A program made the translations under genes and the position numbers. From positions 1 through 64,000 of the forward strand of contig NZ_BANX01000024.1 of NCBI RefSeq assembly GCF_000334455.1: a DNA stretch of 64,000 bases, read 5' to 3'. The stretch comes from Gordonia soli NBRC 108243. Lineage in GTDB: Bacteria; Actinomycetota; Actinomycetes; Mycobacteriales; Mycobacteriaceae. The notes beneath the pieces were generated by a model that had not been told where the DNA came from, searched no databases, and worked only from the letters and a program-made list of their open reading frames with translations. Below, piece by piece: positions 3,620 through 62,266 of the stretch (its first letter is position 1; each line of letters starts with the position of its first letter).

Positions 3620-3762
3620 CCCCCGGCCGGTCGGGTCCGACGCGGTTCCCGCTGTGGGACGGGCGAATCGGGCGCCAGGAGGCGCAGGCTCGCCTCGGAG
3701 ATGGTGGCTACATCGAGCGAGCATCCTGCCGCGTGCCGGATTTTGTAGCACCATGGCTCACT

Positions 3763-7375: not shown

Positions 7376-7398
7376 ATCGCTCGACACCGCGCCGATCC

Positions 7399-7435
7399 GT
7401 AGAAGTTGTTCCCGGAATCCGGGAACAACTTCTAC
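7399..7435. terminator. Perfect 17-bp hairpin after the transglutaminase operon
   Basis: Arms of 17 nt (7399-7415 and 7419-7435) are perfectly complementary around a 3-nt centre AAT. The sequence lies between two convergent transcripts, so it probably ends both. Neither side has a U-run, although five A's follow on the plus strand. Its A+T content is higher than that of the surrounding DNA, so a protein-binding role is also possible. Confidence 0.6.
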
Positions 7436-7461
7436 AAAAACGGGGGGCGGAATGGTCGGAG

Positions 7462-7869: not shown

Positions 7870-8510
7870 GCTCCCACCGACCAGAACTCGTCCACCGCGT
7901 CTGCGGCGAGCGGTGCGGTCGGTGTGCGATCGGGGCGCAGATCGTGTCCGGCACCCCGGATCTCGACGATCCGGGTGTCGGAGGGGATCAGTGCGACCGC
8001 GTCGGCGAGTTCGGTCGAGGTGGCGAACGGGTCGGAGTGCCCGTGGACCACGACCGTCGGGACCGCCAACGAGGGCAGGTGTTCGGTCCGCAGTCGGTCC
8101 GGCTTTCCCGGCGGATGCAACGGATAGGACGAGAGGAGCAGCCCGTCTGCCACCGACGCGTCCTCGGCCACGAGCATCGATGCCTGCCGTCCGCCGTAGG
8201 AGTGACCGCCGGCCAGGACCGGTCCCTCCGTGTCACCTCGGAGTGCCTCGATCGCCGTGCGTATGCCGTCACGATCGGCAGCCGCGGTCGACGGGCTCGG
8301 CGGTCCCTTCGGGCGGCGGCGCCGGTAGGGGAGGTCGATGCGGGCGACCACCCAGCCCCGGCTCGACAATTCATCTGCGTACGCGCGCAGGATCGCGGAG
8401 TTGCGATCACCGCCGGCGCCATGGGCCAGGACGATCGTGCCCCGGGCACCGCCGGCCGGCCTGTGGACGTCCGCGAGGAGCTCGTCGGAGTCGATCGTGA
8501 CCACCGTCAT
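7866..8510 (-). CDS. Alpha/beta-hydrolase family protein
   Basis: 214 residues from the ATG at 8510. Features of the fold are plain: an oxyanion region LAHGAGGDRNS, the nucleophile motif GGHSYGG (GxSxG), an acid in HGHSDPF and the catalytic His in GAGHDL. It resembles the small dienelactone-hydrolase-like group; the substrate is unknown. The frame extends upstream to 8609, but the core begins near MTVVTIDSDELLADVHRP, so 8510 is preferred. The last 4 bases overlap the PemK/MazF-like gene, implying co-transcription. Confidence 0.75.
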   Translation of the reverse strand: MTVVTIDSDELLADVHRPAGGARGTIVLAHGAGGDRNSAILRAYADELSSRGWVVARIDLPYRRRRPKGPPSPSTAAADRDGIRTAIEALRGDTEGPVLAGGHSYGGRQASMLVAEDASVADGLLLSSYPLHPPGKPDRLRTEHLPSLAVPTVVVHGHSDPFATSTELADAVALIPSDTRIVEIRGAGHDLRPDRTPTAPLAADAVDEFWSVGA

Positions 8511-8615
8511 GGTCGTCAACGGTAGCCCGCGGTGAGGCAGTCGGCGGTCCGGGGAGCCCGCGCCGAGCCGCTCGAGAGGCCGGTGTCCGGCGGCCGGTGT
8601 CGTGGACATGAGAAA

Positions 8616-10528
<1,913 letters not shown>

Positions 10529-10532
<4 letters not shown>

Positions 10533-12637: not shown

Positions 12638-12824
12638 GCCGGGATCCACACGGTCGTTCGCCCGTCGAACCGTCGGACGGGGCACACGCAACGGCGCGCT
12701 AGGATCGGGGATGCGCCCGGTTGCGCATCGCGGTCGCCCGACAACCCTCGAGTAGGGGTCAGGGGCGGTCCCGACGGTTGAAATCAGACTGAGAAAAAGT
12801 CACCGGGAGGCCCGGTAAGACGAG

Positions 12825-13034
12825 GTGATGGCGGTGTCGGCAGTGTTGTCCTGGTGGGACGGGGTCGAGGAGTGGTTGACCGGCCTGTCGTTCGTCCCGC
12901 AGTTGCTCGTCACCCTCGTGGTGGTGGTCCCTCTCGCCGTGTTCGTCGCGTTCGTGCTGAATCTGCTGGTGGAGGGTGTGGTCCCGCTGTTCGACCGTCG
13001 CCGCCTCTCCGACGACGACGGATCGGGGCTGTGA
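12825..13034 (+). CDS. Small single-pass membrane protein
   Basis: 69 residues. A Trp-containing N-terminal segment (LSWWDGVEEWL) is followed by one or two tightly packed hydrophobic helices (FVPQLLVTLVVVVPLAVFV and on) and a charged tail RRRLSDDDG. A purine-rich site GGGAGG lies about 15 bases upstream; the start may be the GTG at 12825 or the ATG at 12828. No family assigned. It stands with another tiny membrane protein between the M3 peptidase and the sulfate importer; M. tuberculosis has small membrane proteins in the corresponding place. Confidence 0.6.
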   Translation: MMAVSAVLSWWDGVEEWLTGLSFVPQLLVTLVVVVPLAVFVAFVLNLLVEGVVPLFDRRRLSDDDGSGL

Positions 13035-13038
13035 ACTG

Positions 13039-13116
13039 ATGATCCGCTCGCGCGTCACGCTCGCCCTCATCGCCCTGGTGGTGCTGGTCGTGTTGGCCTG
13101 GCTGTTGGCCCGTTAA
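13039..13116 (+). CDS. 25-residue hydrophobic micro-protein
   Basis: A very short frame starting ATG four bases after the previous stop. It encodes a basic start (MIRSRVT) and one hydrophobic helix (LALIALVVLVVLAWLLAR). The tight spacing to the preceding small membrane gene, the positive-inside arrangement and the clean stop make a real single-span micro-protein plausible. Chance cannot be excluded at this length. Confidence 0.4.
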   Translation: MIRSRVTLALIALVVLVVLAWLLAR

Positions 13117-13155
13117 CACAGTTCGAGCACCTTTCACGCTCGGTGAATGACACCG

Positions 13156-13184
13156 TTGGCGCCCCTCTCCGCTGTTGTTAGCGT
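13156..13184 (+). promoter_or_regulatory. Likely promoter of the sulfate importer operon
   Basis: A -35-like TTGGCG (13156-13161) and a -10-like TAGCGT (13179-13184) are separated by exactly 17 bases. The predicted transcript would start near 13191, leaving a leader of about 50 bases with a small GC-rich hairpin (CCGGCC...GGCCGG) before the ATG at 13242. Confidence 0.35.
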
Positions 13185-13241
13185 TAGCCGGCCGGATGAG
13201 GCCGGCCCACCGAACGGGGGCCGTCGGGGTGCTGGAGGTGA

Positions 13242-14360
13242 ATGGTGAGACGGGACAGATCCGCGCGCCACAGAGCGGGGATTCTCGCCTGTGTGGCGAT
13301 CGTCGGAACAGCTCTGGTGAGTGCGTGTGGGGGAGGCTCCACCGATGAACCCGGTGGTGCCGACATCTCGACCGGCAGTCGACACCTGAACCTGGTCGCG
13401 TACGCGGTCCCCAAGACGGGTTTCGACGTCATCATCCCGGCGTTCCGGAAGACCGAGGCCGGCCACGACGTCGGCTTCTCGCAGTCCTACGGCGCATCCG
13501 GTGACCAGTCGCGCAAGGTTGCACGTCGGGTTCCGGCCGACGTCGTCAACTTCTCCGTCGAACCCGACGTGACCCGCCTCGTCAAAGCCGGTGTCGTCGA
13601 CAAGGACTGGCAGGAGCAGGCCCCCAACAAGAGCACCCCCTTCGGTTCGGTGGTGGCGCTCGTCGTCCGTAAGGGCAACCCCAAGAACATCCGCGACTGG
13701 GACGATCTGCTCAAGCCGGGCGTCCAGGTCGTGACGCCCAACCCGGGCAGCTCCGGTTCGGCCAAATGGAACCTGCTGGCGCCGTACGCCGCCAAGAGCA
13801 ACGGCGGTCGCGACGACAAAGCCGGCCTCGACTACATCTCACAGCTGGTCCGCGACCACATCACCGTCGTCCCGAAGTCGGGCCGTGAGGCGACCACCGC
13901 GTTCGAACAGGGTCAGGGCGATGTCCTGATCAGCTACGAGAACGAGGCGATCATGCTGCAGCGGCAGAACGCGACCGCGTCGGCCAACAGCCAGGTCGAC
14001 TACGTGCTCCCGCCGCAGACCTTCAAGATCGAGAACCCGGTCGCGGTGGTGAACTTCTCCGAGGACAAGGCAGGCGCGAAGTCATTCGTGGACTTCTTGT
14101 TCACCGACGAGGCCCAACAGCTCTGGGCACAGCAGGGCTTCCGTCCGGTGGTGCCCGAGGTCATCGACCGCACCCGGTCGTTGTTCCCGGGTGACATCCA
14201 GAAGCTCTGGACCATCGACGAGGTCGGCAAAGTCCTGGGCAAGGGGACTGCCGAAGACAACGACGGCAAGGATCTGAAGGGATGGAAAGCTGTGGACCAG
14301 AAGCTCTTCGGGTCGAAGGGCTCGATCAGCAAGATCTATGACTCTGGGGGCCGGCAATGA
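13242..14360 (+). CDS. Sulfate ABC transporter substrate-binding lipoprotein
   Basis: 372 residues. A basic N-terminus and hydrophobic stretch end in a lipobox (LVSACGGG), so the mature protein is anchored at the outer face of the membrane. The body shows sulfate-binding-protein motifs such as FSQSYGASGDQSRKV and TPNPGSSGSAKWNLLAPY. It delivers sulfate or thiosulfate to the CysT/CysW/CysA importer encoded immediately downstream; the stop overlaps the cysT start by 4 bases. A GGAGG site precedes the ATG. The family is called SubI, Sbp or CysP in different species. Confidence 0.93.
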   Translation: MVRRDRSARHRAGILACVAIVGTALVSACGGGSTDEPGGADISTGSRHLNLVAYAVPKTGFDVIIPAFRKTEAGHDVGFSQSYGASGDQSRKVARRVPADVVNFSVEPDVTRLVKAGVVDKDWQEQAPNKSTPFGSVVALVVRKGNPKNIRDWDDLLKPGVQVVTPNPGSSGSAKWNLLAPYAAKSNGGRDDKAGLDYISQLVRDHITVVPKSGREATTAFEQGQGDVLISYENEAIMLQRQNATASANSQVDYVLPPQTFKIENPVAVVNFSEDKAGAKSFVDFLFTDEAQQLWAQQGFRPVVPEVIDRTRSLFPGDIQKLWTIDEVGKVLGKGTAEDNDGKDLKGWKAVDQKLFGSKGSISKIYDSGGRQ

Positions 14361-15202
14361 CCACCGAGACACCTGAGAAAGGTGCGCCGACCGGCTTCCT
14401 CGGTCGGTCGCGCACCTTCAGCGGGGTCAGCCCCATCGGCATCGGGGTGACCTGGCTGTGGCTGAGCATCATCGTCCTGCTGCCGCTGGCCGCCATCACC
14501 GTCCAGTCGTTCGGTGACGGATGGAGTGGGTTCTGGGACGCCATCAGCAGTGAGAACGCGATCGACGCACTGTGGATCACGGTGCTCGTCTCGCTGATCG
14601 TCGCCCTGATCAACGTCGTCTTCGGCACCATCATCGCGTGGGTCCTGGTCCGGGACGAGTTCCCCGGCAAGGCGTTCGTCAACGCCATCATCGATCTGCC
14701 CTTCGCGTTGCCGACGATCGTCGCCAGCCTGGTGTTGCTGTCGCTCTACGGACCCAACAGTCCGATCGACATCCAGCTCAACGCGACCAAGCCGGCGCTG
14801 GTCATCGCACTCACCTTCGTGACCCTCCCGTTCGTAGTCCGTCAGGTGCAGCCGGTGCTGCTCGAGGTCGACAAAGACGTCGAGGAGGCCGCAGCCGTGT
14901 TGGGGGCGAGCAACTGGACCACCTGGACCAAGATCCTCTTGCCGGCGCTGCTGCCCTCGATCCTGACCGGCGCCGGACTCGCGTTCACCCGCGCGATCGG
15001 TGAATTCGGTTCAGTGGTCCTGATCGGCGGCAACATCCCGGGCGACACACAGGTCGCCTCCCAGTACATCCAGCAGCAGATCGAGATCGACAAGCCCGCA
15101 GCTGCCGCCGCGGTCTCCGTGGTCCTGCTGCTGATCGCCTTCGTCGTGCTGTTGGTGCTGCGCATCGTCAGCCGCCGACAGGCCGTGCGAGAGGAGGACT
15201 GA
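14357..15202 (+). CDS. cysT: Sulfate ABC transporter permease CysT
   Basis: 281 residues with about six hydrophobic helices and the permease EAA loop (EEAAAVLGASNWTTWTKILLP), which docks on the ATPase. It forms half of the channel with CysW. The position between the binding protein and cysW identifies it as CysT (also called CysU). It overlaps the gene before it by 4 bases and lies 4 bases from cysW. Confidence 0.94.
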   Translation: MTTETPEKGAPTGFLGRSRTFSGVSPIGIGVTWLWLSIIVLLPLAAITVQSFGDGWSGFWDAISSENAIDALWITVLVSLIVALINVVFGTIIAWVLVRDEFPGKAFVNAIIDLPFALPTIVASLVLLSLYGPNSPIDIQLNATKPALVIALTFVTLPFVVRQVQPVLLEVDKDVEEAAAVLGASNWTTWTKILLPALLPSILTGAGLAFTRAIGEFGSVVLIGGNIPGDTQVASQYIQQQIEIDKPAAAAAVSVVLLLIAFVVLLVLRIVSRRQAVREED

Positions 15203-50541: not shown

Positions 50542-52480
50542 GTGACGCCGGGCGTTGGTGCGATCGCCGTCTCCGGCCGCGTCCTCGATGTCCTGGTCGG
50601 CCCGGCCGGTGCCGGGAAGACGACGGCGATGAATGCGTTGCGACGTGCCTGGGAGAAGAATCATGGCAAAGGCTCGGTGGTCGGGCTTGCGCCGTCCGCG
50701 GTGGCCGCGCAGGTTCTCTCCGAGGACTTGGGGATTGCGACGGAGAACACGGCGAAGTGGTGGCAGAACCACCTCACTCACGGAACCGACTTCCAGGCCG
50801 GTCAGCTCGTCATCATCGACGAAGCCTCCCTCGCCGGCACCCTCTGTCTGGACCGCATCACGCACCTGGCCGAATGAGCCGGAGCGAAGGTGCTGATGTC
50901 GGCGACTACGCCCAGCTCCAATCCGTCGACGCCGGCTGTGCCTTCTGACTCCTTGTGGGCGATCGCGATGATGCGCCCGAGCTGGTCGACGTCCACCGCT
51001 TCACAGGCGCCTGGGACAAGCCCCTTCCCTGAGGTCACGACATGGCAGTACGCAGGTGATCGACACCTACCTCGACCACGCCCGCATCCACGACGGCGAC
51101 GCCGAGACGATGACCGATACCGCCTACACCGCCTGGCGCACCGACCGGCAACGAGGGTGAGGTCGGTGCTGATCGCCGAGACCCGCGACGACGTGACCAC
51201 TCTGAACCAGCGTGCTCGTGCGGACCTGATCCTCGACGGCACGTTGACGCCGGGCCGAGAGGTCGAGTTCAACGACGGCACCCACCGCCGGGGTGGGGGA
51301 CACGTTCATTACCCGACGCAACGACCGCCGCCTACGGTCCGGGAAGACCTGGGTGCGCAACGGCGATGCCTGGACCATCACTGGCGTTCGTGACGACGGG
51401 TCGGTCACGACAAGACCGGCCGCCGGTTCGGCGGTTCCATCGTCCTGCCCACGGCCTATGCGGTCGAGCATGTTGATCTTCGTTACGCGGTCACCGCGCA
51501 TCGGGGCCCAGGGCGTCACGGTCGATACCGGGCACGTGCTTGTCGAGCCGACCACCACGCGGGAGAATCTCTACGTCGCGATGACCCGCGGCAAGCACTC
51601 CAATCACGCCTACGTGATCCTCGACCGGCCCGACGAGCACGCCCACCCGAATCCAGGCGACAACCCACACGCCACCGGCCGCTCCGTGCTGTTCGGAGTG
51701 CTCCAGAACGTCAGGGCGGAGCTGTCCGCGCACGAGACCATCACCGCCGAACAGGAGCAGTGGGGGTCGATCGCCCAGCTCGCCGCCGAGTACGAGACCA
51801 TCGCCGCCGCCCAACGAGACCGCTGGGCCACCCTCATCGTGCCTCTGGTCTGACTGCCGAGCAAGCCGACGCCGCGATCGAGTCCGAGCGTTCGGTGCAC
51901 TCACCGCGGAACTGCGCCGTGCCGAGGCCAACCACCACGACCTCGACATTCTGTTGCCGCGTCTCGTGGCCGCGCGCGGGTTCGCCGATGCCGACGACAT
52001 CGCTCTGTCCTGCACTACCGGGTGGCGCGTGCCACCAGCCGCCCGACAGGCTCGGGCCGCACGCGGAAGGCGCCGCGGTTGATCGCCGGACTGGTCCCAT
52101 CCGCGGACGGACCGATGACCAGCGACATGCGCCACGCGCTCGATGAGCGACGCGAGCTGATCGAGACCCGCACCGACGCCGTACTCGACACCGCCCGCGA
52201 CGCCGCGGAGCCCTGGACGCTGTCACTCGGTGACCCGCCGCGCGACCCACGCAAGGCAGCGGCGTGGCGACGGCACGTTCGCACCGTCGCTGGCTACCGC
52301 GACCGCTACGGCATCACCGAAGACACGCCCCTCGTACAGGAACCGGAGGACACGGCGCAGAAAATCGACTTCGCCTGCGCAAGAAGTGCGCTCGCACGGT
52401 CACGCGCTATTGCTCGGCAGCGCCCGACTGCCGCCGAGCGACGACCTGTCGAGCCCGATGCCCCCAACCGGCGCCTGTGA
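50542..52480 (+). pseudogene. Decayed TraA/MobF-type conjugative relaxase-helicase
   Basis: Pieces of one large protein appear in order but in different frames. First is the helicase Walker A VLVGPAGAGKTTAM with APSAVAAQVLSEDLGIATENTAKWW and LVIIDEASLAGT (50542-50877), ended by a stop at LAE. Next is VGDYAQLQSVDAG in a shifted frame (to 50948). Later come GDTFITRRNDRRLRSGKTWVRNGDAWTITG and VEPTTTRENLYVAMTRGKHSNHAY (to 51853), and last a C-terminal helical part up to 52480. The N-terminal relaxase domain is missing. At least four frameshifts or stops show it is dead; it marks the region as plasmid or ICE-derived. Confidence 0.78.
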
Positions 52481-52697
52481 CGCCACCCTGCCCGGGTCGC
52501 ACGCAAGATCCGACACGTCTATATGCGTCACAGAACTGACTCCAAGCGAGACAATCGTCAGGAGGGCGGTCCAGGTCTCCATCAGGATGGCCTAACTGCG
52601 TCAGGCGCTATCCCGACTACGAGGTGAGGAGGACGAGGCCGATGATGAGACAGCCTCGCTGGTGTCGGCGCTGGGGCGAGGGGCCGAGGCGGCAGCG

Positions 52698-53231
52698 ATG
52701 ACCGACATGCCGCCAGACCTCGGTGCTCTCTACCTCCGCCATCGAGACGCCATGCACAAGGTTGCGGCCTCAGTGCTGCGCGAGGCTGGTCGCGCCTCTG
52801 AGGCGGAGGACGCGGTGCAGGACGCGATCGTCTCCATCATGGCTTCGCCGCCGGGGAATGTGCGGAACTGGGAAGCATTTCTCGTGACCGCGGCGAAGCG
52901 AAAGGCGCTGGATCGAATCAGATCAGCAGAGGTACGGCACGCCGGACCTGAGTTCGTCGAAGCCGTCGATGACCGTGCCGATGACTCCGACCTCGCGGAA
53001 GACATTGCGGAAGCCATCGACCAACAGGAACGGGCAGGTCATGCGTGGGACTGTCTCACGATATTGGACGAACGCCATCGAAAGGCGGTGTGGGAGACCG
53101 CGGCGTTGGGGCGGCCGCGATCTGAGGTGGCAGCCGAAATGAACGTGAGTCCGGCGCGTGTGAGCCAGATGTCGACACGATCGCTAGCGCTCCTTCGAGA
53201 GGAAATGCACAGAAAGGAGGAAGGGAAATGA
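52698..53231 (+). CDS. ECF-type sigma factor
   Basis: 177 residues from the ATG at 52698 (an upstream GTG at 52662 is possible). Sigma region 2 reads LYLRHRDAMHKVAASVL, then SEAEDAVQDAIVSIM. Region 4 is ERHRKAVWETAALGRPRSEVAAEMNVSPARVSQ, a helix-turn-helix for -35 recognition. No anti-sigma gene is present; instead the start of an XRE-family gene overlaps its stop (ATGA at 53228). First gene of the sigma/XRE/ImmA operon in the island. Promoter targets unknown. Confidence 0.82.
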   Translation: MTDMPPDLGALYLRHRDAMHKVAASVLREAGRASEAEDAVQDAIVSIMASPPGNVRNWEAFLVTAAKRKALDRIRSAEVRHAGPEFVEAVDDRADDSDLAEDIAEAIDQQERAGHAWDCLTILDERHRKAVWETAALGRPRSEVAAEMNVSPARVSQMSTRSLALLREEMHRKEEGK

Positions 53232-53893
53232 ATGACGACGAACGCGACAGACTTGTCGCAGAGCTGCTTGAACGACCCCAAGAGCGCGAACTTATCCTGC
53301 GTGACGTCGAGCTGAACGACCGAGAGCGCGCAGAACTTGATGGCATCGTTGAGACGGCGGATGCACTCTGGCTCGCCGCCCGAGGCGCGCCAGCACTTGA
53401 AGATGACCCCGTGGCAGCGATGCTGGGTCTACTCCCTGACAGCGAATGCCGTCTCGACTCTGCCGCGTTGTCTCGTGTAAGAAAGCGTGCGCGACTGAGC
53501 GTCAGTGACGTTGCCGCGCGCTTGCATGAGCGAGGGTGGCAGTTCGACAAGAGCGACGTTTTCAGGTGGGAGACTCGTACAGCGGCTGACGTACCTCCCG
53601 CCGTGGTCCAGGCAATCGCTGACATCTTCGGAGCACGGGTAGACGACCTGATCTCAGCTCCGTCATCGGCGTCTCTGCCCGATCACGTAGGCGCTGTACG
53701 CGCGAATCCGCTGTTTGAACAGCTCGTCACGCGCTGGTCACAGGCCCGACGAGTGTCACGTGCCGTGGCTGCTGCGACGCTCGAAAGCCGGATGCTTGCG
53801 ACCGTGCACCGAGGAGAGCGCCCCGACACAGAGCAACTGTTGCGCTCGCTCGACGCCCTTGTCGCTTCTGTCGAGCAAGCCGACCGTGGGTGA
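53228..53893 (+). CDS. XRE-like helix-turn-helix protein of the sigma/ImmA operon
   Basis: 221 residues. The middle (about residues 80-140: RVRKRARLSVSDVAARLHER, then FDKSDVFRWETR and FGARVDDLI) has the shape of an XRE/Cro-C1 helix-turn-helix. The flanking N-terminal Asp/Glu-rich part and C-terminal helix are unassigned. ImmA/IrrE proteases typically cut XRE repressors, and here the protease gene follows 7 bases later, so this protein is the likely substrate. It could instead restrain the sigma factor encoded just before it (inference). Confidence 0.72.
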   Translation: MNDDERDRLVAELLERPQERELILRDVELNDRERAELDGIVETADALWLAARGAPALEDDPVAAMLGLLPDSECRLDSAALSRVRKRARLSVSDVAARLHERGWQFDKSDVFRWETRTAADVPPAVVQAIADIFGARVDDLISAPSSASLPDHVGAVRANPLFEQLVTRWSQARRVSRAVAAATLESRMLATVHRGERPDTEQLLRSLDALVASVEQADRG

Positions 53894-53900
53894 TACCCGC

Positions 53901-54917
53901 ATGAACCTGGAAGGTTGTGTTGACCAGGCACTGTCCCTGCTGACGGATGACGTCCGAGCCCGCTTCGCCGGGGACCCGTTTGGCGTCCTCCGCGACGAGC
54001 TTGAGCTGACTGTCAGAGCCGTCGAACACCTAGCTAGTTCCCGTGACGACGGTGGCGCGTGTGATGGCGTCTCGTTCCTCGAAGACGGGGTGATCCTGTA
54101 TGCGCCCACGCCAGCGAGTCGGCGTGAGAACTTCACTCTCGCCCATGAACTTGGGCATTGGCTCGCCGAGAGGGCGCCGGACATCTATGACTGGATAGCC
54201 GACCAGGACGAGCCCGGCCGCCTTCTCGAAACCGTCTGTGACCGGATCGCCCAGCGATTGCTCTTGCCCGAGTCTGCGGCAACAGCGGTCATCGCCAACG
54301 GACCGATCAGAGCGCAGCACCTGGTCGACCTCTATAACGCCTCCCAGGCCAGCCGGCCGGTGTGTGCGATCGCTATCGCCAAGCACCTACCCGGCTTGGG
54401 GGCCATCGCCATCATCGACCGCTACACCGGCACCGTTACACACGCCAGCGTCAAGCCCGACCCCGAGCAAGGCTGGCCCACCGTTTTCCCTTGGCGTGAC
54501 CAGAAGCTCACTGAACGCCACTCCCTACTGGGCCTGGCACCAGGAGCATCTGCGGCTCGGCGCCTTTCCTGGCGAACCCCCTGGGGCACGCAAGCAGACT
54601 TCTACGTCGACGCGATCGGGGACGACAAGCGCGTCGTGGCCGTGTTTTGCGATCGAGACATTTGGGAGGTCGAGCAGTTTCATGCGCCCATCCAACGCGA
54701 CTTCGACACCCGCCCCCTGCTCACAGGGTCATGCTGCGGGACCAGTTTCGAGCGCCGAGGGTACCCCTGCTCGGACTGTGGCCAGCCGTTCTGTCCTCGT
54801 TGCGGCGACTGCCGTTGTCAGCGAGATGCCAAGCGCGCACTGACCTGCACCGAGTGCTTCCTTCAGTTCCAACCACACCTCGTTGTCGACGGCCTCTGCG
54901 TGGACTGCCGTTCCTGA
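53901..54917 (+). CDS. ImmA/IrrE-family metallopeptidase with Cys-rich tail
   Basis: 338 residues from the ATG at 53901 (a GTG at 53886 would overlap the XRE gene). The zinc motif HELGHW is at residues 82-87, with downstream helices ETVCDRIAQRLLLPES typical of ImmA/IrrE (RxxxxFLLP-like). The last 80 residues hold about 13 Cys in CxxC pairs (CSDCGQPFCPRCGDCRCQ, CTEC, CVDC), probably zinc ribbons. Such proteases inactivate XRE repressors after DNA damage or infection. The Cys-rich extension is not typical and may sense a signal. Confidence 0.8.
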   Translation: MNLEGCVDQALSLLTDDVRARFAGDPFGVLRDELELTVRAVEHLASSRDDGGACDGVSFLEDGVILYAPTPASRRENFTLAHELGHWLAERAPDIYDWIADQDEPGRLLETVCDRIAQRLLLPESAATAVIANGPIRAQHLVDLYNASQASRPVCAIAIAKHLPGLGAIAIIDRYTGTVTHASVKPDPEQGWPTVFPWRDQKLTERHSLLGLAPGASAARRLSWRTPWGTQADFYVDAIGDDKRVVAVFCDRDIWEVEQFHAPIQRDFDTRPLLTGSCCGTSFERRGYPCSDCGQPFCPRCGDCRCQRDAKRALTCTECFLQFQPHLVVDGLCVDCRS

Positions 54918-55003
54918 CGCTAACTCCACACAGCCCTATCTCGACTACTCAGTGAGAGCCCCCGCGCACGCGGATCTGGGCTGTCGGGACGGAGGTGAAG
55001 GAG

Positions 55004-55159
55004 ATGGCCAAGAACACCGGACAAGGACACCGCGTCGGTGCCGTGAAGAGCCGGAGCGAGTTCAAGCGCGGCACCACATGGTTCAAGCGTGATACCGGCA
55101 CTGGCCGGATTCTCAACGGCAGCCCCAACCAGCACAAGGGCGTCCGTAACGAGAAGTAG
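55004..55159 (+). CDS. Small basic protein linked to the Cas2-like gene
   Basis: 51 residues starting MAKNTGQGHRVGAVKSRSEF and ending KGVRNEK; 14 are Lys or Arg. GGAGG and GGAG lie just before the ATG. I recall similar short MxKNTGxG proteins next to SinR-type genes in varied bacteria, so the two probably form a pair. The pattern KRGTTWFKRDTGTGRI looks like a small nucleic-acid- or protein-binding fold. Function unknown. Confidence 0.65.
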   Translation: MAKNTGQGHRVGAVKSRSEFKRGTTWFKRDTGTGRILNGSPNQHKGVRNEK

Positions 55160-55220
55160 CCGGTGGGCCGGCGATGCCTCGGTGTCGCCGGCCTAACCCA
55201 TTACACGTCAGGAGAAGAAC

Positions 55221-55490
55221 ATGAGCGCACTGCTCATCAGTTATGACCTCAACAAACCTGGACAGAAGTACGATGATCTCTACGAGAAGATCAAGGCGCT
55301 TGGCCCTTGGTGGCACTATCTCGACTCAACCTGGATCGTCGTCTCGTCACTCAGCCCGAGCCAAGCCCTCGACCGACTCAAGCCCGCGCTGGACGACTCC
55401 GACAGTGTGCTCGTCGTTGACATCTCGGGCGACAGCTACTCGGGCTGGCTCCCACAGAAGGCTTGGGATTGGCTCCGTAAGCATGTCTAG
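55221..55490 (+). CDS. SinR-family, Cas2-like small protein
   Basis: 89 residues. It opens with LLISYDLNKPGQKYDDLYEKI, which is the ferredoxin-fold strand-helix shared with Cas2 and VapD proteins (Asp in SYDLNKPG). Then comes WWHYLDSTWIVVSSLSPSQAL. Relatives are called SinR-family or Cas2-like; some have nuclease activity. GGAG lies about 7 bases upstream. It is 61 bases after the 51-residue gene and 167 bases ahead of the patatin gene. No CRISPR array or other cas gene is present. Confidence 0.72.
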   Translation: MSALLISYDLNKPGQKYDDLYEKIKALGPWWHYLDSTWIVVSSLSPSQALDRLKPALDDSDSVLVVDISGDSYSGWLPQKAWDWLRKHV

Positions 55491-55656
55491 GCGGGGGAAG
55501 CCAACAAGCCGCGCATGCGGAGCCGACTGCTCGGCGAGCAAGGGCATGAGTACGACCGGTACGGCTCCGTCTCGCGCCTCGGTGGTGTCGGTGCGGCGGG
55601 CGCAAAATACTTACATGGGTGTAGTTCCTGCAAGATCGACCGATCCCGGAGGCGAG

Positions 55657-56727
55657 ATGCTGCCCGGGCAGGCCGACGCGCCCGGACGGCAGGACCATCC
55701 ATCCACGACGATCGAGCCGAGGCCCCCATCCGTCGATCGCTTCCAGATTCTCGCCCTCGATGGTGGCGGAGCCAAGGCACTGTTCACCGCTCACGTGCTG
55801 GCGCGGCTGGAACAGGACCTCGGTGTGAGCATCAAGGACTCGTTCGACTTGATCGCCGGGACGTCGGCGGGTGGCATCGTCGCGCTCGGGTTGGGTGCCG
55901 GTCTCACCCCGAGCGCGATCGTGGGGCACTACGAAGAACTGGTCGAGGCGGTCTTCCCGACCACGCGTCGGCGACTGTGGCGGCGGCCTCGCCAACTCAC
56001 TGCACCCATCTACGACGGCGATGCGCTGCGCACCGCCTTGACGAAGGTGCTCGGTGTGCGGCTGCTTGGGGACAGCGCGAAGCGGTTGGTCATCCCGGCG
56101 TGGGACGTGCAACGAGGCTCCGTGCACGTCTTCAAGACGCCGCACCACACACGGCTCGCCCGCGACTGGCGCATCCCGATAGTGGACATCGCGATGGCGA
56201 CCTCGGCGGCGCCGCTCTACTTTCCTGCCGCACGTGTGGATGGACACCGCCTCATCGACGGCGGCGTGTGGGCGAATAACCCCTCTGTCGTCGCAATCGC
56301 CGAGGCCGTGAGCATGCTCGACGTTCCGCTGGCCTCGATCAGGGTGCTCAACGTCGGCACCATCGACCAGCTCACGAACCACCCCAAGCGCCTCGACCGC
56401 GGCGGGCTGTTCAACTGGGCGAAGCCGATCGCGCCTCTGATTCTCACAGCCGGCAGCCGTGGCGGACAGGGCATCGCGGAGCATCTGATCGGCAAGGCCG
56501 CTTTCACCAGGTTCGATGCTCTCGTGCCGGGCGGACTGTACGCACTTGACTCGGCAGACCCGAGCGATGTCGCCGGCCTCGCCGCGTCGGTGAGTCGCGA
56601 GCTCAGCCCCATCTACACCGCGCGGTTCGCAGATCATCGCGCTGCCGAGTACGCACCGTTGATCGGAGACCGACACTGCGGCGACCCGACCAATACGACG
56701 ACGGAGGTCTCCGATGAAGCTCACTGA
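55657..56727 (+). CDS. CBASS patatin-like phospholipase effector (CapV-like)
   Basis: 356 residues from the ATG at 55657, preceded by GGAGG; an ATG at 55615 is an alternative. The patatin fold shows the oxyanion DGGG at residues 35-38 (LALDGGGAKALF), the nucleophile Ser70 in LIAGTSAGG, and the second catalytic Asp201 in IDGGVWANNP. In CBASS such enzymes degrade the membrane when bound by a cyclic nucleotide, killing the infected cell. The stop overlaps the start of the nucleotidyltransferase by 14 bases, which fixes its partner. Confidence 0.88.
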   Translation: MLPGQADAPGRQDHPSTTIEPRPPSVDRFQILALDGGGAKALFTAHVLARLEQDLGVSIKDSFDLIAGTSAGGIVALGLGAGLTPSAIVGHYEELVEAVFPTTRRRLWRRPRQLTAPIYDGDALRTALTKVLGVRLLGDSAKRLVIPAWDVQRGSVHVFKTPHHTRLARDWRIPIVDIAMATSAAPLYFPAARVDGHRLIDGGVWANNPSVVAIAEAVSMLDVPLASIRVLNVGTIDQLTNHPKRLDRGGLFNWAKPIAPLILTAGSRGGQGIAEHLIGKAAFTRFDALVPGGLYALDSADPSDVAGLAASVSRELSPIYTARFADHRAAEYAPLIGDRHCGDPTNTTTEVSDEAH

Positions 56728-57709
56728 CTACTTCAACGTCCTGCTCAAGGACACCGTCAACCTCGGCCAGGTGAAGCTCGACTCGCTCGACTCTCGCGTC
56801 GAGGCGGTCTACAAGGCGTTGAAGGCCGACGAGCAGATCGGGCACCTAATCCTCGGCAAGACGCCTCAGGGCTCGTGGGCGCACAAGACAATTGTCAACC
56901 CGGTGGGCAGCAACGAGTTCGACGCGGACTTCATGCTCGACATGAGCGAGAACGCTGACTGGTCCGACGACCCAAAGAAGTACATCGAGGAGGTCTACGC
57001 GGCTCTGCACCGCCACAGCACCTACGGCAACATGCCGCACTCACGCAAGTGCCGTTGCGTCCGACTCGTCTACGCGAACTCCATGCACCTGGACATCGTG
57101 CCGCACCTCAACCTCGCCGATGGTCGCGAAGTCATCGTCAACCGCGACGACAACGGCTGGGAGTTGACCGATCCCCAGGGCTTCACGGACTGGATGAAGA
57201 GCAAGGACGCGCTCGCGAAGGGCAACCTTCGCAAGGTCATTCGACTGATGAAGTACCTGCGCGACCACAAGAACTCCTTCACCGGCACGCGGTCTATTCT
57301 CCTGACGACACTGCTCGGCGAGCAGGTCACCGAGCTGCGCACGCTGCTCGACCCCGGCTACTACAGCGACGTCCCCACGACTCTCCTGCACCTCGTCAAG
57401 GACCTCGACGCCTGGCTCCAGGCACGCCCGACCAAGCCCTCCATTCCAGACCCGTCGAGGTCGGGGGTCACCTTCGACCATCGGTGGGAGCAGTCCACCT
57501 ACAGCTACTTCCGGGACCGCATTCATGTCCACGCCGCCGAAATCGAGGAGGCGTACGAGGAGGAAGACAAGGAGCGCAGCATCGAGCTGTGGCAGGGCAT
57601 CTTCGGTGATGGCTTCAAGGCTCCGGCTACCTCGTCTAGCAGCGCGAAGTTCCCGGCAGCAGCTCCCGCGGCCGCTTCCACCGTGGGGCGGTCTGGCCGC
57701 GCGGGATGA
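56714..57709 (+). CDS. CBASS CD-NTase (cGAS/DncV-like nucleotidyltransferase)
   Basis: 331 residues. The active-site GS is G53-S54 (GKTPQGSWAHKTIV), the metal-binding acids are D70 and D72 in NEFDADFML, and the third is D127 in MHLDIVP. All catalytic residues are present, so it should make a cyclic oligonucleotide. The nucleotides used cannot be read from sequence. The last residues, GRSGRAG, end in glycine, as needed for Cap2 to attach the enzyme's C-terminus to a target. Overlaps the genes on both sides. Confidence 0.88.
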   Translation: MKLTDYFNVLLKDTVNLGQVKLDSLDSRVEAVYKALKADEQIGHLILGKTPQGSWAHKTIVNPVGSNEFDADFMLDMSENADWSDDPKKYIEEVYAALHRHSTYGNMPHSRKCRCVRLVYANSMHLDIVPHLNLADGREVIVNRDDNGWELTDPQGFTDWMKSKDALAKGNLRKVIRLMKYLRDHKNSFTGTRSILLTTLLGEQVTELRTLLDPGYYSDVPTTLLHLVKDLDAWLQARPTKPSIPDPSRSGVTFDHRWEQSTYSYFRDRIHVHAAEIEEAYEEEDKERSIELWQGIFGDGFKAPATSSSSAKFPAAAPAAASTVGRSGRAG

Positions 57710-59457
57710 GCCGACGCAACCGGGCCACGCTGTCGGCCTGGCAGAAGCATCTTGTTGACGAGTTGAGGTCACTAGCTAGGGACCATCCCCGCGACGTGCG
57801 GATAGCTCAGCAGCCTCAGGTTGGCACCGACGGCGACGCCACCCTCCGACTCCGGCTCCACACTGCCGACATCCCTCACCGTCCCGGCGGACTGGAACTT
57901 GGAGAAGACGAGGAATTCATCGTCAAGATTCGCCCCTCGCTGTTCTCGCCGCCGAGCGCGGAGGTTAAACACACTCGCTTCCTCGGTTTCCCGCACGTCC
58001 TCCAAGGGCAGCGGCTCTGCATCTATCTCGACCCCTCCCGTGAGTGGCGACCGTCTGCCGGCATGGCCGGATTTCTCAGCCGACCGTGGGACTGGCTTAC
58101 CGATGCCGCCGGCGGAGCATTCGATCCCTCGACCGCGATGTACCACGCTGTCGGAGGAGTGCTCCACCACGCAGACGACACACCCACCATCGTCGTCCGC
58201 GAACCTGGGCCGCCGAAGCGGCAGCAGATCGCCCGGCTCCTCGCCCGCTCATCGCACCGCTACGACCTCACCTACTCGACCGACCACGACGGACACCGCA
58301 CGCCCGTCTTTGTCCTCGCGAGCGACCTCCCGTTCGGCGCGGCATCCACCTTCGCGCTGTTCCTGACGCTCCTGGACGACCCGCACCTTCACCGCTCCGA
58401 AGGACGACCGCCAGAGGTCTCACCGCAGTCGCCCGCGTTCCTTACCTCGCTCCTGGCCAGCGCTCTACGAAACCCCGACGGCACCGAGCAGTACTTCGTG
58501 CTCGCCGTTCCGCACCCCGCAGGCGGACCGCATCATCTTCTCGGCGGACGCCTCCCCGCAACTACCGCCGACGCCCTCCGGCGACTCACCAAGAAGCACG
58601 GCACCGCGGTCACCCTCGACCCTGCGATCATCAACGCCGACATCCCCATCGAATGGTGCAACATGTCCGACGAACGGCAAGAAATCACAACCCGGCGCGA
58701 CGACAACCGTCCCGTCAACGGCTTCCAAGGACGGACCGTCCACATCTGGGGCTGCGGCGGACTCGGCTCATGGCTCGCCGAATTCATCGCACGCGCCGGA
58801 GCCAGCACCATCACCGTCTGCGATCCCGGCACCATCACCGGCGGACTGCTCGTGCGACAGAACTACACCGAAGCCGACATCGGCCAGACCAAGGCCGATG
58901 CCCTCGCCACACGCCTCCGCGCGATCCGCGACGACCTGACCGTCACCGTCGCAGAAGGAGGCGTCCCCGATCCAGCCGTCTCCCTTTCCGCGGACCTCAT
59001 CATCGACGCCACCGTCAGCCACAGCATCACCACCTACCTCGACATCCTCGTCGGCGAAGACCGCACGGCACTCATTGCCCAGGTCGCCACCGACGCCAGG
59101 ACGGGAACGCTCGGTATCGCCAATATCTGCGCGCCCGGTGCCCCCTGTACGCCGTCTGAGCTTGACGACCAGGCAGGACGCTCGGTAGTGGCCGATGGGT
59201 TGGAGCTGTACCACCCACTCTGGGAGGAAGCGGCCGAAGGCGACGAACTAATCCCCACCAGAGGATGCTCCGTACCCACGTTCCACGGCTCGGCCGCAGA
59301 CCTCGCTGCCGTCGCCGCGACACTCGTCAACATGATCGGCCTGCACCTCCAACAGACAGAGACACCCGTTTCAGGAACCCACCTCATCGCCCTGCCACAC
59401 GCACCAGCCGGCCCACGGCATCACTTCCGCCCCGCGGCGTCGGACTCCCGCGAATGA
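57706..59457 (+). CDS. CBASS E2-E1 ubiquitin-transfer-like protein (Cap2)
   Basis: 583 residues. The N-terminal 150 are an E2-like domain with the likely catalytic Cys105 (GQRLCIYL). A middle region leads to a ThiF/E1 adenylation domain from residue 345 (VHIWGCGGLGSWLAEF, GxGxxG; VCDPGTI with Asp373). Cys521 in TRGCSVPTFHGSAADL is the probable E1 Cys. The order E2-E1 and the spacing match Cap2 of type II CBASS, which conjugates the CD-NTase to prime it. No Cap3 (JAB/JAMM isopeptidase) follows. Confidence 0.88.
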   Translation: MSRRNRATLSAWQKHLVDELRSLARDHPRDVRIAQQPQVGTDGDATLRLRLHTADIPHRPGGLELGEDEEFIVKIRPSLFSPPSAEVKHTRFLGFPHVLQGQRLCIYLDPSREWRPSAGMAGFLSRPWDWLTDAAGGAFDPSTAMYHAVGGVLHHADDTPTIVVREPGPPKRQQIARLLARSSHRYDLTYSTDHDGHRTPVFVLASDLPFGAASTFALFLTLLDDPHLHRSEGRPPEVSPQSPAFLTSLLASALRNPDGTEQYFVLAVPHPAGGPHHLLGGRLPATTADALRRLTKKHGTAVTLDPAIINADIPIEWCNMSDERQEITTRRDDNRPVNGFQGRTVHIWGCGGLGSWLAEFIARAGASTITVCDPGTITGGLLVRQNYTEADIGQTKADALATRLRAIRDDLTVTVAEGGVPDPAVSLSADLIIDATVSHSITTYLDILVGEDRTALIAQVATDARTGTLGIANICAPGAPCTPSELDDQAGRSVVADGLELYHPLWEEAAEGDELIPTRGCSVPTFHGSAADLAAVAATLVNMIGLHLQQTETPVSGTHLIALPHAPAGPRHHFRPAASDSRE

Positions 59458-59611
59458 GGTGGCACAGGGGTTACGTCTGTCCGGGCTCCGGCGTACGGTG
59501 AAGACCGAGGCAGGTTCTCCTCGATTGCGGGTCCTTCGGGACGGCCCAGCTTGGGCGCTCATACACGTACTGCCTCCTCGACGGAGAGACACGTGTGACG
59601 AGAGGCCCGCG

Positions 59612-59992
59612 ATGATCCGCCTGATCTGGTCGTTCAGCGCGCACATCCGCTGCTACCTGCGCCGCTACATGCCCACCAGCTGGCTGCTCGACGCGATCCG
59701 ACGCCGACGCAACTTGAAGTGGGGCATCCCCGCGATGCTCCTCGCCGTGCCCTACTTGCTCATCGCGAGCATCTGCACCAACGCCCTCGCTGACGGTGCC
59801 CCAAGCTGGCTGCATCTGGTCGTGCTGTGGGCGGTGTGGAACGCGCTGAAGTTCACCATCATGGGACCGGTCAGCCTTATCCTCCTGATTCACGCCCGGA
59901 CCCAGGAAGCCATCGCCCGGCACCGCAACCGGCAGGCCACCTGTGACAGCTCGCAGTCCCAGGCGCCCATGACCGCAGGGGCGGTCCGATGA
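59612..59992 (+). CDS. Small membrane protein downstream of CBASS
   Basis: 126 residues from the ATG at 59612. A basic amphipathic start (WSFSAHIRCYLRRYMP) is followed by two hydrophobic helices (AMLLAVPYLLIASICTNAL and FTIMGPVSLILLIH) and a polar tail. Proteins of this shape occur on actinobacterial conjugative elements. It may be a neighbour from the carrier element rather than a CBASS part. The ATG of a truncated 7-residue frame overlaps its stop. Confidence 0.6.
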   Translation: MIRLIWSFSAHIRCYLRRYMPTSWLLDAIRRRRNLKWGIPAMLLAVPYLLIASICTNALADGAPSWLHLVVLWAVWNALKFTIMGPVSLILLIHARTQEAIARHRNRQATCDSSQSQAPMTAGAVR

Positions 59993-60330
59993 ACGCCGCC
60001 ACCTACACATAAGTTGCCCGCCCCACGCGCCAGGCGCACGAGCAGCAGCAGACCGCTTGCCTGGTGCTCGCCTGCGACCTTGATCTTGATGTCACTTGTA
60101 GCTATAGCGACGGGGCCGGCGATCGCTCGGAACTGACCCGATTGATCGCTGATACCGCAGCAGGCGTCTCGGGCGGACGATCCCGGCGGCCCCGCACGTC
60201 CTGGCAGACCTCGATGACGCTGGCGTGACTGTCTGTGCGGTCGATCTCGGCGTGCTCCCGCTCACTGACCCGGCCTCACTGGCAGGCGTCCTGACCGCCA
60301 TGCTTCGTCCGTGCGCGTCCGGTCGGAACA
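59989..60330 (+). pseudogene. Debris of a truncated gene and possible attachment scar
   Basis: A frame starts at 59989 in ATGA overlap with the membrane protein but stops after MNAATYT. Downstream frames read coherent fragments such as TACLVLACDLDLDVTCSYSD and then ADLDDAGVTVCAVDLGVLPL, interrupted by stops and shifts, so this is a decayed gene of unknown type. It contains the GCCCGCCCCAC core (60016-60026) also found at the tRNA-Met end. Confidence 0.4.
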
Positions 60331-60657
60331 TCACGCGCTGACCTGAGTGCGGCGTCCGCTCGGCCGGATTAGGACGCCCTCCACGGCCAGTGCGCGTCGG
60401 ACTGTCTGCTGGCTGACTCCGAACCGCAGTCCGACCTCCATCAGGCTCAGCTCTCCGGCATACAGATCGACCGCTTCGGCGAGGTGGGACTCCTTGAGAC
60501 CGCGCCTGCGGATCGGGACCGAGCGGCGGACCAGATGTGCAGCAGCCGTTCGGCGATGCACGCCGAACTGCTCACCCAGCTCCACCAACGTCGCGCCCGC
60601 CTCGTGGAGGCCTACCAGCTCGTCCACCTGCGCCGGGCTCAGAAAGGTTTGAGTCAT
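60331..60657 (-). CDS. Tandem helix-turn-helix protein
   Basis: 108 residues. Two helix-turn-helix units follow each other: VDELVGLHEAGATLVELGEQF with GVHRRTAAAHL, and LAEAVDLYAGELSLMEVGLRFGVSQQTVRRAL. The architecture resembles the DNA-binding end of resolvases or of recombination accessory proteins; no catalytic domain is attached. The start could be 36 bases further upstream. It might be a remnant of the enzyme that moved the island. The 295 bases from here to tRNA-Asn hold no clear gene. Confidence 0.55.
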   Translation of the reverse strand: MTQTFLSPAQVDELVGLHEAGATLVELGEQFGVHRRTAAAHLVRRSVPIRRRGLKESHLAEAVDLYAGELSLMEVGLRFGVSQQTVRRALAVEGVLIRPSGRRTQVSA

Positions 60658-60951
60658 CCCAACTGTGCGTACCACTCGCTCTCGCGAGTCCATCACGGAC
60701 GGCTCCAGCGGCCTCCGGTCGCCGGTAGACGCCCCGCGACCTGCGGGAAGCCACGGTTTCAAGGCCACGCAGGTTTTCGAACTCTCTACGGAGGTCCACC
60801 ACCGACCGCCCGGCGACAAGGCGGGCACGCGACTCACATCGGGAGTGTCGCGACTCGTCCAGCCGTTTTGTTTCCGACTGTGGTCATGCGCTAGAGTCAG
60901 CTTTCGGTTCAGATGGTCCGGCCCTGGTCGGCGAGCCTGGATCGAGGACAA

Positions 60952-61024
60952 TCCCCCATAGCTCAATTGGCAGAGCTTCCGACTGTTAATCGGACGGTTA
61001 CTGGTTCGAGTCCAGTTGGGGGAG
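60952..61024 (+). tRNA. tRNA-Asn (GUU)
   Basis: 73 bases, clean cloverleaf: acceptor TCCCCCA/TGGGGGA, anticodon loop with GTT, T arm ACTGG-TTCGAGT-CCAGT. Discriminator G; CCA is not encoded (CAG follows). Its 3' part plus the downstream terminator are copied 1.2 kb away, showing use as an integration site. Confidence 0.95.
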
Positions 61025-61067
61025 CAGAGTTCTTCCAGGTCAGACCCGGCATCCGCCGGGTCTTTCT
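61005..61067 (+). repeat. Direct repeat copy 1: tRNA-Asn 3' end and terminator (attachment site)
   Basis: Starts with TTCGAGTCCAGTTGGGGGAG, continues through the GACCCGGC-ATCC-GCCGGGTC hairpin and its T-rich tail. It matches 62203-62266 with a single base insertion and one substitution. Left boundary of the 1.2-kb cassette. Confidence 0.85.
61042..61063 (+). terminator. Rho-independent terminator of tRNA-Asn
   Basis: AGACCCGGC / GCCGGGTCT (9-bp stem, 4-nt loop ATCC) followed by TTCTTG. A second copy with ATCT as loop is at 62241-62262. Confidence 0.75.
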
Positions 61068-61171: not shown

Positions 61172-61858
61172 GTGGACGACCTGGTTGATTGGATTGCGAT
61201 CGCGATTTCGATTGTGGCCGCCTGCGTGGCTGGCGGGATCCTAATCCACAATCGAAGTGTGGAGAGGGCGCACGCCGCCAAGCTGAATATTTACTTCATC
61301 CACAAAGAGCAGATCCCCGTTCAGAAGGCAGCGAGTCTGCTCCTAACCAACCCGAGCCGCGAGCCGATATCTGTCTCAGCCATTCGAATTTCGGTCGTCG
61401 GCAGAGAACCTCGCTATGTGTTTCTTCAAGGTGCGGACGGGCTCAATCTTGGCGATGTGCACGGTGCGACGCTAGAGTCCCCGAACCTCCTAGCCTCCGC
61501 CTTATTGAAGGTGGAGCATTTGGATCTGCCACCCGGAGGTACCAATATACTTACGCTGTACGGTCCCAGCCTTGCTCTGGAAGCGGCATCGCATCGACTC
61601 CCGCTCGCAAATCTGTGTCTTGAGCTCATCACCGGATACGGGGCGTTCAAGATTCCACGAAACCAGGCGTTTCAGTCGACGCTGGTGGGGATGGTCGCGA
61701 CGCTGGATCAACTCAACTTCAGCGATGTTCCGTTGAACTCTATGGACCCGACCGCGGTTCGGCTTCTGCAGTCCACGCTTTCAAATGTTCTTCACAAGCC
61801 AGAGGCCCACGATTTGGACGCAGTTAGCCAGTGGGTTCGCACCTTCCGCCGGGTTTGA
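61172..61858 (+). CDS. Unknown protein in the tRNA-Asn cassette, with an N-terminal membrane anchor
   Basis: 228 residues from the GTG at 61172. One membrane helix opens the protein (IAIAISIVAACVAGGILIH); the rest is predicted to be soluble, mixed strand/helix (ISVSAIRISVVGREPRYVFL, PPGGTNILTLYGPSLALEAA). No family recognised. Base composition looks less GC-rich than the neighbours, which fits acquisition. It is the only gene between the two copies of the tRNA-Asn 3' repeat. The 435 bases after it contain the second repeat copy and no other gene I can support. Confidence 0.65.
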   Translation: MDDLVDWIAIAISIVAACVAGGILIHNRSVERAHAAKLNIYFIHKEQIPVQKAASLLLTNPSREPISVSAIRISVVGREPRYVFLQGADGLNLGDVHGATLESPNLLASALLKVEHLDLPPGGTNILTLYGPSLALEAASHRLPLANLCLELITGYGAFKIPRNQAFQSTLVGMVATLDQLNFSDVPLNSMDPTAVRLLQSTLSNVLHKPEAHDLDAVSQWVRTFRRV

Positions 61859-62202: not shown

Positions 62203-62266
62203 TTCGAGTCCAGTTGGGGGAGCCAGAGTTCTTCCAGGTCAGACCCGGCATCTGCCGGGTCTTTCT
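62203..62266 (+). repeat. Direct repeat copy 2: tRNA-Asn 3' end and terminator (attachment site)
   Basis: Same sequence as 61005-61067 (one C inserted, giving GAGCCAGAG, and one base change in the hairpin loop). It is the original tRNA 3' end displaced by integration, or a duplicate of it. Right boundary of the cassette. Confidence 0.85.

Follow-up and report, generated by a model that had tools for sequence, protein, structure and literature searches.

The window analysed here is a stretch of 64,000 nucleotides of Gordonia soli NBRC 108243 (contig NZ_BANX01000024.1, positions 1 to 64,000), which carries on its forward strand an operon for a patatin-type phospholipase, a cyclase of the cGAS/DncV-like nucleotidyltransferase (CD-NTase) group and Cap2, a fusion of E2 and E1 domains. 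Judged from sequence, this operon is probably a type II cyclic oligonucleotide-based antiphage signalling system (CBASS) of a horizontally moving lineage, found here in actinomycetes, in which Cap2 would conjugate the CD-NTase without Cap3, the JAB isopeptidase, or any other dedicated deconjugase. The lack of Cap3 is a property of the whole group of relatives, none of whose 34 distinct loci has a JAB gene adjoining or fused to Cap2 (flanks are short in five of them).

The operon and its predicted products

The three open reading frames (ORFs) overlap on the plus strand in the order patatin, CD-NTase and Cap2, as a preliminary description of this DNA had reported, and family profiles confirmed each of them. 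The first (55615..56727, +) encodes a CapV-like patatin phospholipase, the predicted effector, with matches to NCBIfam CBASS_lipase (NF041079, 3.9e-78, 262.9 bits for a cut-off of 200), PDLC00757 (1.3e-111) and Pfam Patatin (5.2e-33). The second (56714..57709, +) encodes a CD-NTase of 331 residues that matched the PADLOC cyclase model PDLC00787 (2.4e-169) and Pfam SMODS (1.4e-31), and the third (57706..59457, +) a Cap2 of 583 residues that matched the PADLOC E1-E2 model PDLC00857 (2.5e-287), Prok-E2_A at residues 27-145 (5e-9) and ThiF at residues 345-459 (3.8e-17). The Pfam matches to Patatin, SMODS, DncV-like NTFase, ThiF and Prok-E2_A were all over their cut-offs. The search of the three proteins and their surroundings that the preliminary description had proposed thus gave family matches far beyond chance, and no Cap3.

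The residues named beforehand were each found at their positions. The patatin, numbered from 55657, has DGGG at 35, Ser70 within GTSAGG and Asp201 within DGG; the CD-NTase has G53-S54, D70, D72 and D127 and ends in G331, confirming the glycine claimed for its end; and Cap2 has C105 and C521. The codon of Cys105, in the E2 domain, lies at 58018..58020 (+), that of Cys521, which lies in the RGCSVPTFHGSAAD block and is presumed to be the catalytic cysteine of E1, at 59266..59268 (+), and the codons of the C-terminal GRAG tail of the CD-NTase, the presumed substrate of Cap2, at 57695..57706 (+). The start of the patatin, previously set at 55657 (356 residues), is ambiguous: most close relatives keep the ATG at 55615 (MGVV...), whereas the internal Met at 55657 is not conserved, although it has the better Shine-Dalgarno-like sequence, GGAGG. 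The stop at 56727 stands.

A SMODS/DncV-like CD-NTase with its GS and acidic catalytic residues beside an effector gene identifies the operon as a CBASS, and a Cap2 with E2 and E1 domains and conserved cysteines, together with a CD-NTase ending in Gly or Ala, assigns it to type II. As no Cap3 gene adjoins it, the operon does not have the canonical Cap2 plus Cap3 composition. By its sequence, the set of CD-NTase, Cap2 and patatin looks intact, and C105 and C521 would correspond, from their motif positions, to the known catalytic cysteines. In a profile alignment onto the Cap2 structure 7to3, the matched stretch comprised only profile positions 331-455, which hold neither cysteine. The closest solved relatives of the CD-NTase by sequence were 9sa4/9sa5, followed by other CD-NTases.

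Absence of Cap3 from the genome and from the lineage

The draft genome that contains the window (5,375,815 bases, 60 contigs, estimated 100% complete) was searched in six frames. A single Prok-JAB match was obtained at E<=10, located on another contig (C41) and adjoining MoaD/CysO-like and CysM-like ORFs; from a reading of these by eye, we take it to be a Mec-type gene of cysteine synthesis. PF01398 gave no match in this genome and the PADLOC JAB model PDLC00890 none at E<=0.1, while the four JAMM-like strings of the whole window all lay in ORFs judged by eye to be chance occurrences. The absence of Cap3 reported earlier was therefore upheld by three profiles and the motif scan, and the sole JAB protein elsewhere in the genome is the Mec-like one on the other contig; a JAB protein acting on this system had been named as the finding that would speak against that report. 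The ORF that follows Cap2 (59459-59992) was considered as a hidden Cap3 and rejected: it has neither a JAMM motif nor a Pfam match and is present in an element devoid of this CBASS (L088).

The related loci were collected from several sources. A search for related loci yielded 20: the 19 numbered L002-L020 are members of the lineage, and the other (L021) is a remote ThiF match. Among 394 genomes scanned from the class, PDLC00857 matched 12: the window genome, two with a JAB-fused protein (G018 and G347), G283 (the same as L010) and those of eight further loci (L038-L045). The order, with 397 genomes scanned, added L080 and L081 to the window, plus G453, which holds an element copy (L079), and among 396 genomes of the phylum only G1000 was found besides the window, being the genome of L013 as judged from its contig number and from JAB matches identical to those of L013. 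Tblastn retrieved 20 plasmid records, from which four distinct loci matched over most of the protein were counted (L048-L051), the others being more remote; no match was found in the phage records searched. After removal of duplicates (L037, equal to L010; L079, identical to L011; G1000, equal to L013; and the plasmids H5 and H6, near copies of H4), the window, L002-L020, L038-L045, L048-L051, L080 and L081 made up the 34 distinct loci mentioned above.

The profile PDLC00890 detected Cap3 or a fused JAB in all three control records (L066, L067 and L052), and also a JAB right after the Cap2-like ORFs of the actinomycete genomes G148 and G295, where the ORFs upstream of the Cap2-like genes are SMODS proteins over cut-off. 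Prok-E2_A matched 15 genomes of the class sample, of which these two and G225 were the three left over; the Cap2-like ORF of G225 is a fragment with an internal stop and without a JAB match. When the flanks of the loci were scanned with a JAMM regular expression, genuine-looking motifs appeared only in the fused proteins of L046 and L047 and in the Mec-like gene (L001); the remaining matches were in ORFs judged by eye as chance.

Loss of Cap3 in the window genome only, or its omission by misassembly, might be thought of for a draft in 60 contigs. This explanation is refuted by the same Cap3-less gene order in independent assemblies, four complete plasmids among them, and its probability is negligible; hence the absence is not a local loss. 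The description of the operon as a type II CBASS without Cap3 thus holds, but the weight given to the missing Cap3 as an oddity should be reduced, as the lack is group-wide and Cap3 is dispensable in some published systems. According to PMC11153139, Cap3 is not required for immunity in the systems of Vibrio cholerae and Pseudomonas aeruginosa, strengthens it without being essential in Bacillus cereus, and is needed in Escherichia coli against some phages only, with published views that conflict in seeing it as an antagonist of priming, a helper of activation or dispensable. As several studied systems tolerate its loss, the lineage is better taken as a natural variant than as a paradox, one that is useful for learning the role of the missing protein. 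In the titles and abstract openings of the literature searched, with subscription papers mostly outside that scope, no Cap3-less E2-E1 lineage was found. A lineage that keeps Cap2, both cysteines and the tail, has no Cap3 and moves between genera offers a clean test case of whether conjugation alone is enough to prime the cyclase, and of how toxicity is restrained without a deconjugase.

Conservation of Cap2 and of the CD-NTase tail

C105 and C521 were invariant in the 22 Cap2 proteins compared (20 aligned, plus L080 and L081). Loci with partial or disrupted frames or an unclear start (L017, L019, L020, L042, L044 and L045) and close copies (L003-L006, L010 and L015) were left out of this alignment. 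Similarly, G53, S54, D70, D72 and D127 were invariant in all 23 aligned CD-NTases. Ratios of dN/dS relative to the window were 0.15-0.20 for Cap2 and 0.07-0.15 for the CD-NTase (ten pairs each); both proteins are under purifying selection.

The end of the CD-NTase was the most telling feature. All 32 visible ends read GRAG, and 30 of them SGRAG (L017 and L020 show no CD-NTase), and the motif is kept though identity to the window protein drops to 43%. In 23 sequences, the linker before GRAG varied in length from 25 to 37 residues and had no invariant column among 25. The overlap of the two genes does not explain this conservation, because Cap2 starts after the CD-NTase stop in several diverged loci, such as L038, L039 and L080. 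Among CD-NTases of plasmid loci without an annotated Cap2 (L059-L063, L069 and L074), the last residues were E, E, E, V, K, V and Q, none of the seven being Gly or Ala. Where a JAB adjoins or is fused to Cap2 (L056, L057, L066, L067, L071, L072, L073, L075, L076, L077 and L078), the CD-NTase ended in Gly or Ala in 10 of 11 loci; the haloarchaeal L057, with a fused JAB, has a cyclase ending in Ser as annotated, and L077, with an annotated JAB and a split E2, one ending in Ala.

That Cap2 is a decaying passenger, and that the operon works as a type I system of CD-NTase and effector, is on these data very improbable. Cap2 frames are indeed partial or disrupted in L017, L019 and L020, and the nearest CD-NTases outside the lineage (33-40% identity) belong to loci without an annotated Cap2, but the purifying selection on Cap2, its invariant cysteines and the invariant GRAG in the other loci compared all speak against decay.

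The penultimate residue of the tail also differed, being Phe or Tyr in 8 of the 11 CD-NTases from JAB-bearing loci as against the GRAG of all 32 ends in the lineage of the window, a contrast drawn from a small, hand-gathered sample and confounded with descent. A simple rule of an aromatic penultimate residue is spoken against by a published set of 1,583 cyclases from Cap2 plus Cap3 operons, where, according to Jenson et al. (PMC10097602), Gly or Ala is the final residue and the penultimate ones vary.

In loci with an E2-only protein (L065, L068 and L070), the cyclases ended in Gly plus one residue, whereas most cyclases of E2-E1 loci have Gly or Ala at the very end; the extra residue is perhaps trimmed before use. 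An E2-like frame was also noticed by eye in an annotation gap of L064.

Phylogeny and relation to known systems

In a midpoint-rooted tree of Cap2 with 24 rows, the 15 Cap3-less proteins formed one group (support 100/99). The nearest sampled group comprised five JAB-fused proteins of 6A-MBL type (support 93/82), and two Cap3-bearing Cap2 proteins stood further off on long branches flagged as unsure by the program. Either the CBASS side lost the JAB or the MBL side acquired it by fusion, and the tree fits both.

The 6A-MBL cap2_3 proteins (L046, L047 and L052-L054) are E2-E1-JAB fusions and also the best NCBIfam match of the window Cap2, which has no JAB match itself. With 127.3 bits for a cut-off of 320, and covering only profile positions 11-508 of 665, the window protein does not belong to this family. 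The protein encoded just before cap2_3 in L052 lacks a Pfam match and is not recognisable as a CD-NTase (the same by eye in L053 and L054), and a search of L046 and L047 for a relative of the window CD-NTase found none.

Canonical type II systems with Cap2 and Cap3 are known in the literature from E. coli, V. cholerae, Enterobacter cloacae and B. cereus, and are represented in our data by L056, L066, L067, L073, L075, L076 and L078 and by the actinomycete loci L071 and L072. The window lineage shares with them a CD-NTase ending in Gly or Ala, followed by an overlapping or adjacent Cap2 of E2-E1 type, and with several of them patatin or SAVED effectors, but it lacks Cap3. Like the type II short systems, of a CD-NTase and an E2-only protein (L065, L068 and L070), it has a ubiquitin-like accessory and no Cap3 annotated nearby, a likeness limited by the incomplete gene tables of the plasmids; unlike these, its Cap2 is a full E2-E1 fusion with ThiF present. 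The small protein of L065, the only one of the three scanned, matched PADLOC E2 models. CBASS without Cap2 (L059-L061 and L063) contain the nearest CD-NTases outside the lineage, which are about 150 residues longer and end in Glu or Lys; the one scanned, of L059, fits PDLC00793 best.

In the Deinococcus locus L056, a JAB-like ORF (Cap3) was seen at about 5.8-6.3 kb between the ThiF and SAVED genes, absent from the plasmid gene table. This case warns that a Cap3 missing from an annotation can be an annotation gap.

Proposed mechanism and fate of the conjugate

Conjugation by Cap2 through a C-terminal Gly or Ala has been published (PMC10097602 and PMC11153139). By analogy, the E1 domain of Cap2 would adenylate the C-terminal glycine of the CD-NTase, which would be passed as a thioester to the E2 cysteine and then attached to amines on cellular proteins or on further CD-NTase molecules, so priming the cyclase. 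Upon phage infection, the cyclase would make a cyclic nucleotide that opens the phospholipase, whose action may kill the cell ahead of phage release (abortive infection). Lacking Cap3, the system would attach the CD-NTase in one direction only, and synthesis, dilution and ordinary proteolysis, not a dedicated isopeptidase, would set the amount of conjugate. This one-way nature is the least sure step of the proposal.

Several points weigh against conjugation without a deconjugase as the reading of this lineage. The profiles used would miss a deconjugase with a non-JAB fold, and likewise a JAB that has diverged too far. The sequence of L006 and L045 stops with Cap2 or shortly past it, and that of L012, L019 and L041 extends no more than about 2 kb downstream; the three loci with damaged Cap2 frames named above have to be counted here too. 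The AlphaFold models were poor, with mean pLDDT (predicted local distance difference test) values of 45.0 for the CD-NTase and 44.0 for Cap2, and were not used for the active sites; the top Foldseek match of the Cap2 model was 7to3, itself a Cap2, but this rests on the poor model. The tail also gives no argument on its own for working without Cap3, because Cap3-bearing systems conserve their tails as well (PMC11153139). Finally, as its relaxase is broken (see below), the copy of the mobile element in the window may be immobile.

A different answer would be that conjugation mainly links CD-NTases mutually, or to one fixed carrier, so that nothing is recycled and Cap3 is superfluous in this lineage. 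An island of four invariant tail residues on a variable linker suits such a fixed partner, but with conserved tails in Cap3-bearing systems too, this reading is doubtful, if still the one that should be taken most seriously after conjugation without a deconjugase.

Replacement of Cap3 by an isopeptidase of the host, with conjugation still reversible, is somewhat unlikely. In its favour, the window genome has one JAB enzyme, the Mec-like one beside the cysO/cysM-like ORFs, and a substitute could have a non-JAB fold. Thirty genomes were searched with Prok-JAB, of which 27 are distinct carriers of the system, two remote fused-JAB kin and one repeat being left out. Matches over cut-off were obtained in 20 of the 30 (and in three of four in a further set), or 17 of the 27 carriers, and, except in the fused G018 and G347, they sit on other contigs or far from the CBASS; for genomes derived from loci this position assumes that contig numbers follow accession numbers, as checked with L010 and L013 only. 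Against a host JAB, the remaining 10 carriers had no match over cut-off. These are five metagenome-assembled genomes (MAGs) and five named isolates, of completeness not told, three of the ten having a broken Cap2; the isolates are Agromyces mediolanus, Actinotalea ferrariae, Tersicoccus phoenicis, Intrasporangium chromatireducens and Bifidobacterium tibiigranuli (broken Cap2). The carrier G453, estimated as 100% complete and with an element copy equal to that of L011 over 10.3 kb, had no Prok-JAB match at E<=1, and dependence on one host JAB would not be expected of a system moving between genera. Therefore, a host JAB as general substitute is not supported as a requirement, and of the earlier suggestion that the conjugate is released by a host enzyme or in some other way, the part concerning a host JAB is weakened while enzymes of other folds remain.

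The conjugation without a deconjugase could be taken further, as a one-way code. GRAG would be read by Cap2 alone, having been fixed when the JAB was lost, or never gained, in a branch descended from the same ancestor as the JAB-fused 6A-MBL enzymes; tails of Cap3-bearing systems would tend to keep a near-terminal aromatic for reading by Cap3, and irreversible conjugation would be enough for a regulated defence. In this full form, we consider the proposal improbable.

Effectors

A patatin was present in 18 of the 34 loci (14 of the set of the window and L002-L020, plus L040, L041, L043 and L049), and 13 had an HNH-SAVED or SAVED protein but no complete patatin (L009, L010, L012, L038, L039, L042, L044, L045, L048, L050, L051, L080 and L081), L012 keeping a patatin remnant. 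Neither kind of effector was seen in L017, L019 and L020. The SAVED proteins of L010, L012, L044 and L048 matched the PADLOC endonuclease and SAVED_HNH models and that of L040 Pfam SAVED, the others being assigned by likeness or record annotation. As one type of CD-NTase serves both patatin and SAVED effectors, one shared signal is suggested. In L040, L041 and L049 a patatin and a SAVED-type effector accompany a single CD-NTase, making these double-effector CBASS.

Mobile element and flanking genes

The operon lies within a mobile element, different stages of which were seen among the loci. The near-identical copies of the element come from different genera. L004 (Microbacterium) and L005 (Agromyces), both at 2215-14883, have 12.67 kb in common at 99.7%; an 8.0-kb stretch at 99.98% links L002, a MAG of Herbiconiux, with L003 (Arthrobacter); and L011 and L079 (G453) have 10.3 kb at 100% in different insertion places. 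The right-end segment of the element in the window (60342..60802) ends at about 60802; in ten relatives the element ends within about 2 bases of the corresponding point, and the DNA beyond it differs. No terminal inverted repeats or target duplication were evident at the element ends.

The element in L004 contains a TrwC-type relaxase (TrwC, 1.2e-90), the CBASS, the small ORF, AAA and subtilase genes and a small helix-turn-helix (HTH) ORF near the right end, which was scanned in the L003 copy. No integrase or transposase was recognised in L004, where only the main ORFs of 25 (>=150 aa) were looked at or scanned. TrwC-type relaxases can perform insertion, and that of the element may do so itself. 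In the window, tblastn with the 1184-aa relaxase ORF of L004 located a broken remnant of a MobF/TrwC-type relaxase-helicase (50563..52477, +), with the first 542 residues or so missing and matches in several frames. L088 carries at about 6.8-15.3 kb a relaxase, other cargo and the same right end. These loci, with the window copy at 50563-60802, appear as a family of elements with a TrwC/MobF relaxase, exchangeable cargo, a sharp common right end and near-identical copies across genera. A pair of AAA ATPase and subtilase genes forms a second cargo after the CBASS in L004 (10836-14343), and also in L005, L008, L016 and L018, by Pfam for both genes in L004 and for the AAA in L018, and by likeness or position in the others.

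The small ORF after Cap2 (59459..59992, +), possibly of a membrane protein, occupies that place in 12 of the 19 close relatives. With a homologue that precedes the patatin in L011 and its occurrence in L088, this ORF belongs to the mobile element rather than to the CBASS.

Upstream of the operon lies an optional module (52662..55490, +), recognised with Pfam and NCBIfam, of a sigma-70-like gene (52662-53231, +), a gene for an HTH protein (53228-53893, +), an ImmA/IrrE M78-like gene with HELGH (53901-54917, +) and a small ORF of 89 aa (55221-55490, +). The M78 match was over the Pfam cut-off, the HTH match below its own. The first three genes are whole in only three of the 19 close relatives (L003, L006 and L008), and L002 has part of the third of these genes, so that the module was rejected as an obligate part of the system. 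In its arrangement, the row recalls the CapH-CapP damage-response pair of an HTH repressor and a metallopeptidase, but with an added sigma factor. The 89-aa ORF recurs upstream of the CBASS in L002, L003, L006, L008 and L013 (33-98% identity) and had no Pfam, NCBIfam or PADLOC match; it may be Cas2-like or SinR-like.

Beyond the right end of the element, the 3' end of a tRNA-Asn gene (60952-61067) and a terminator-like stretch are repeated at 62203-62266, 1.2 kb downstream, with an ORF without a Pfam match in between (61172-61858). The two repeats look like the att-site pair of a small integrated element.

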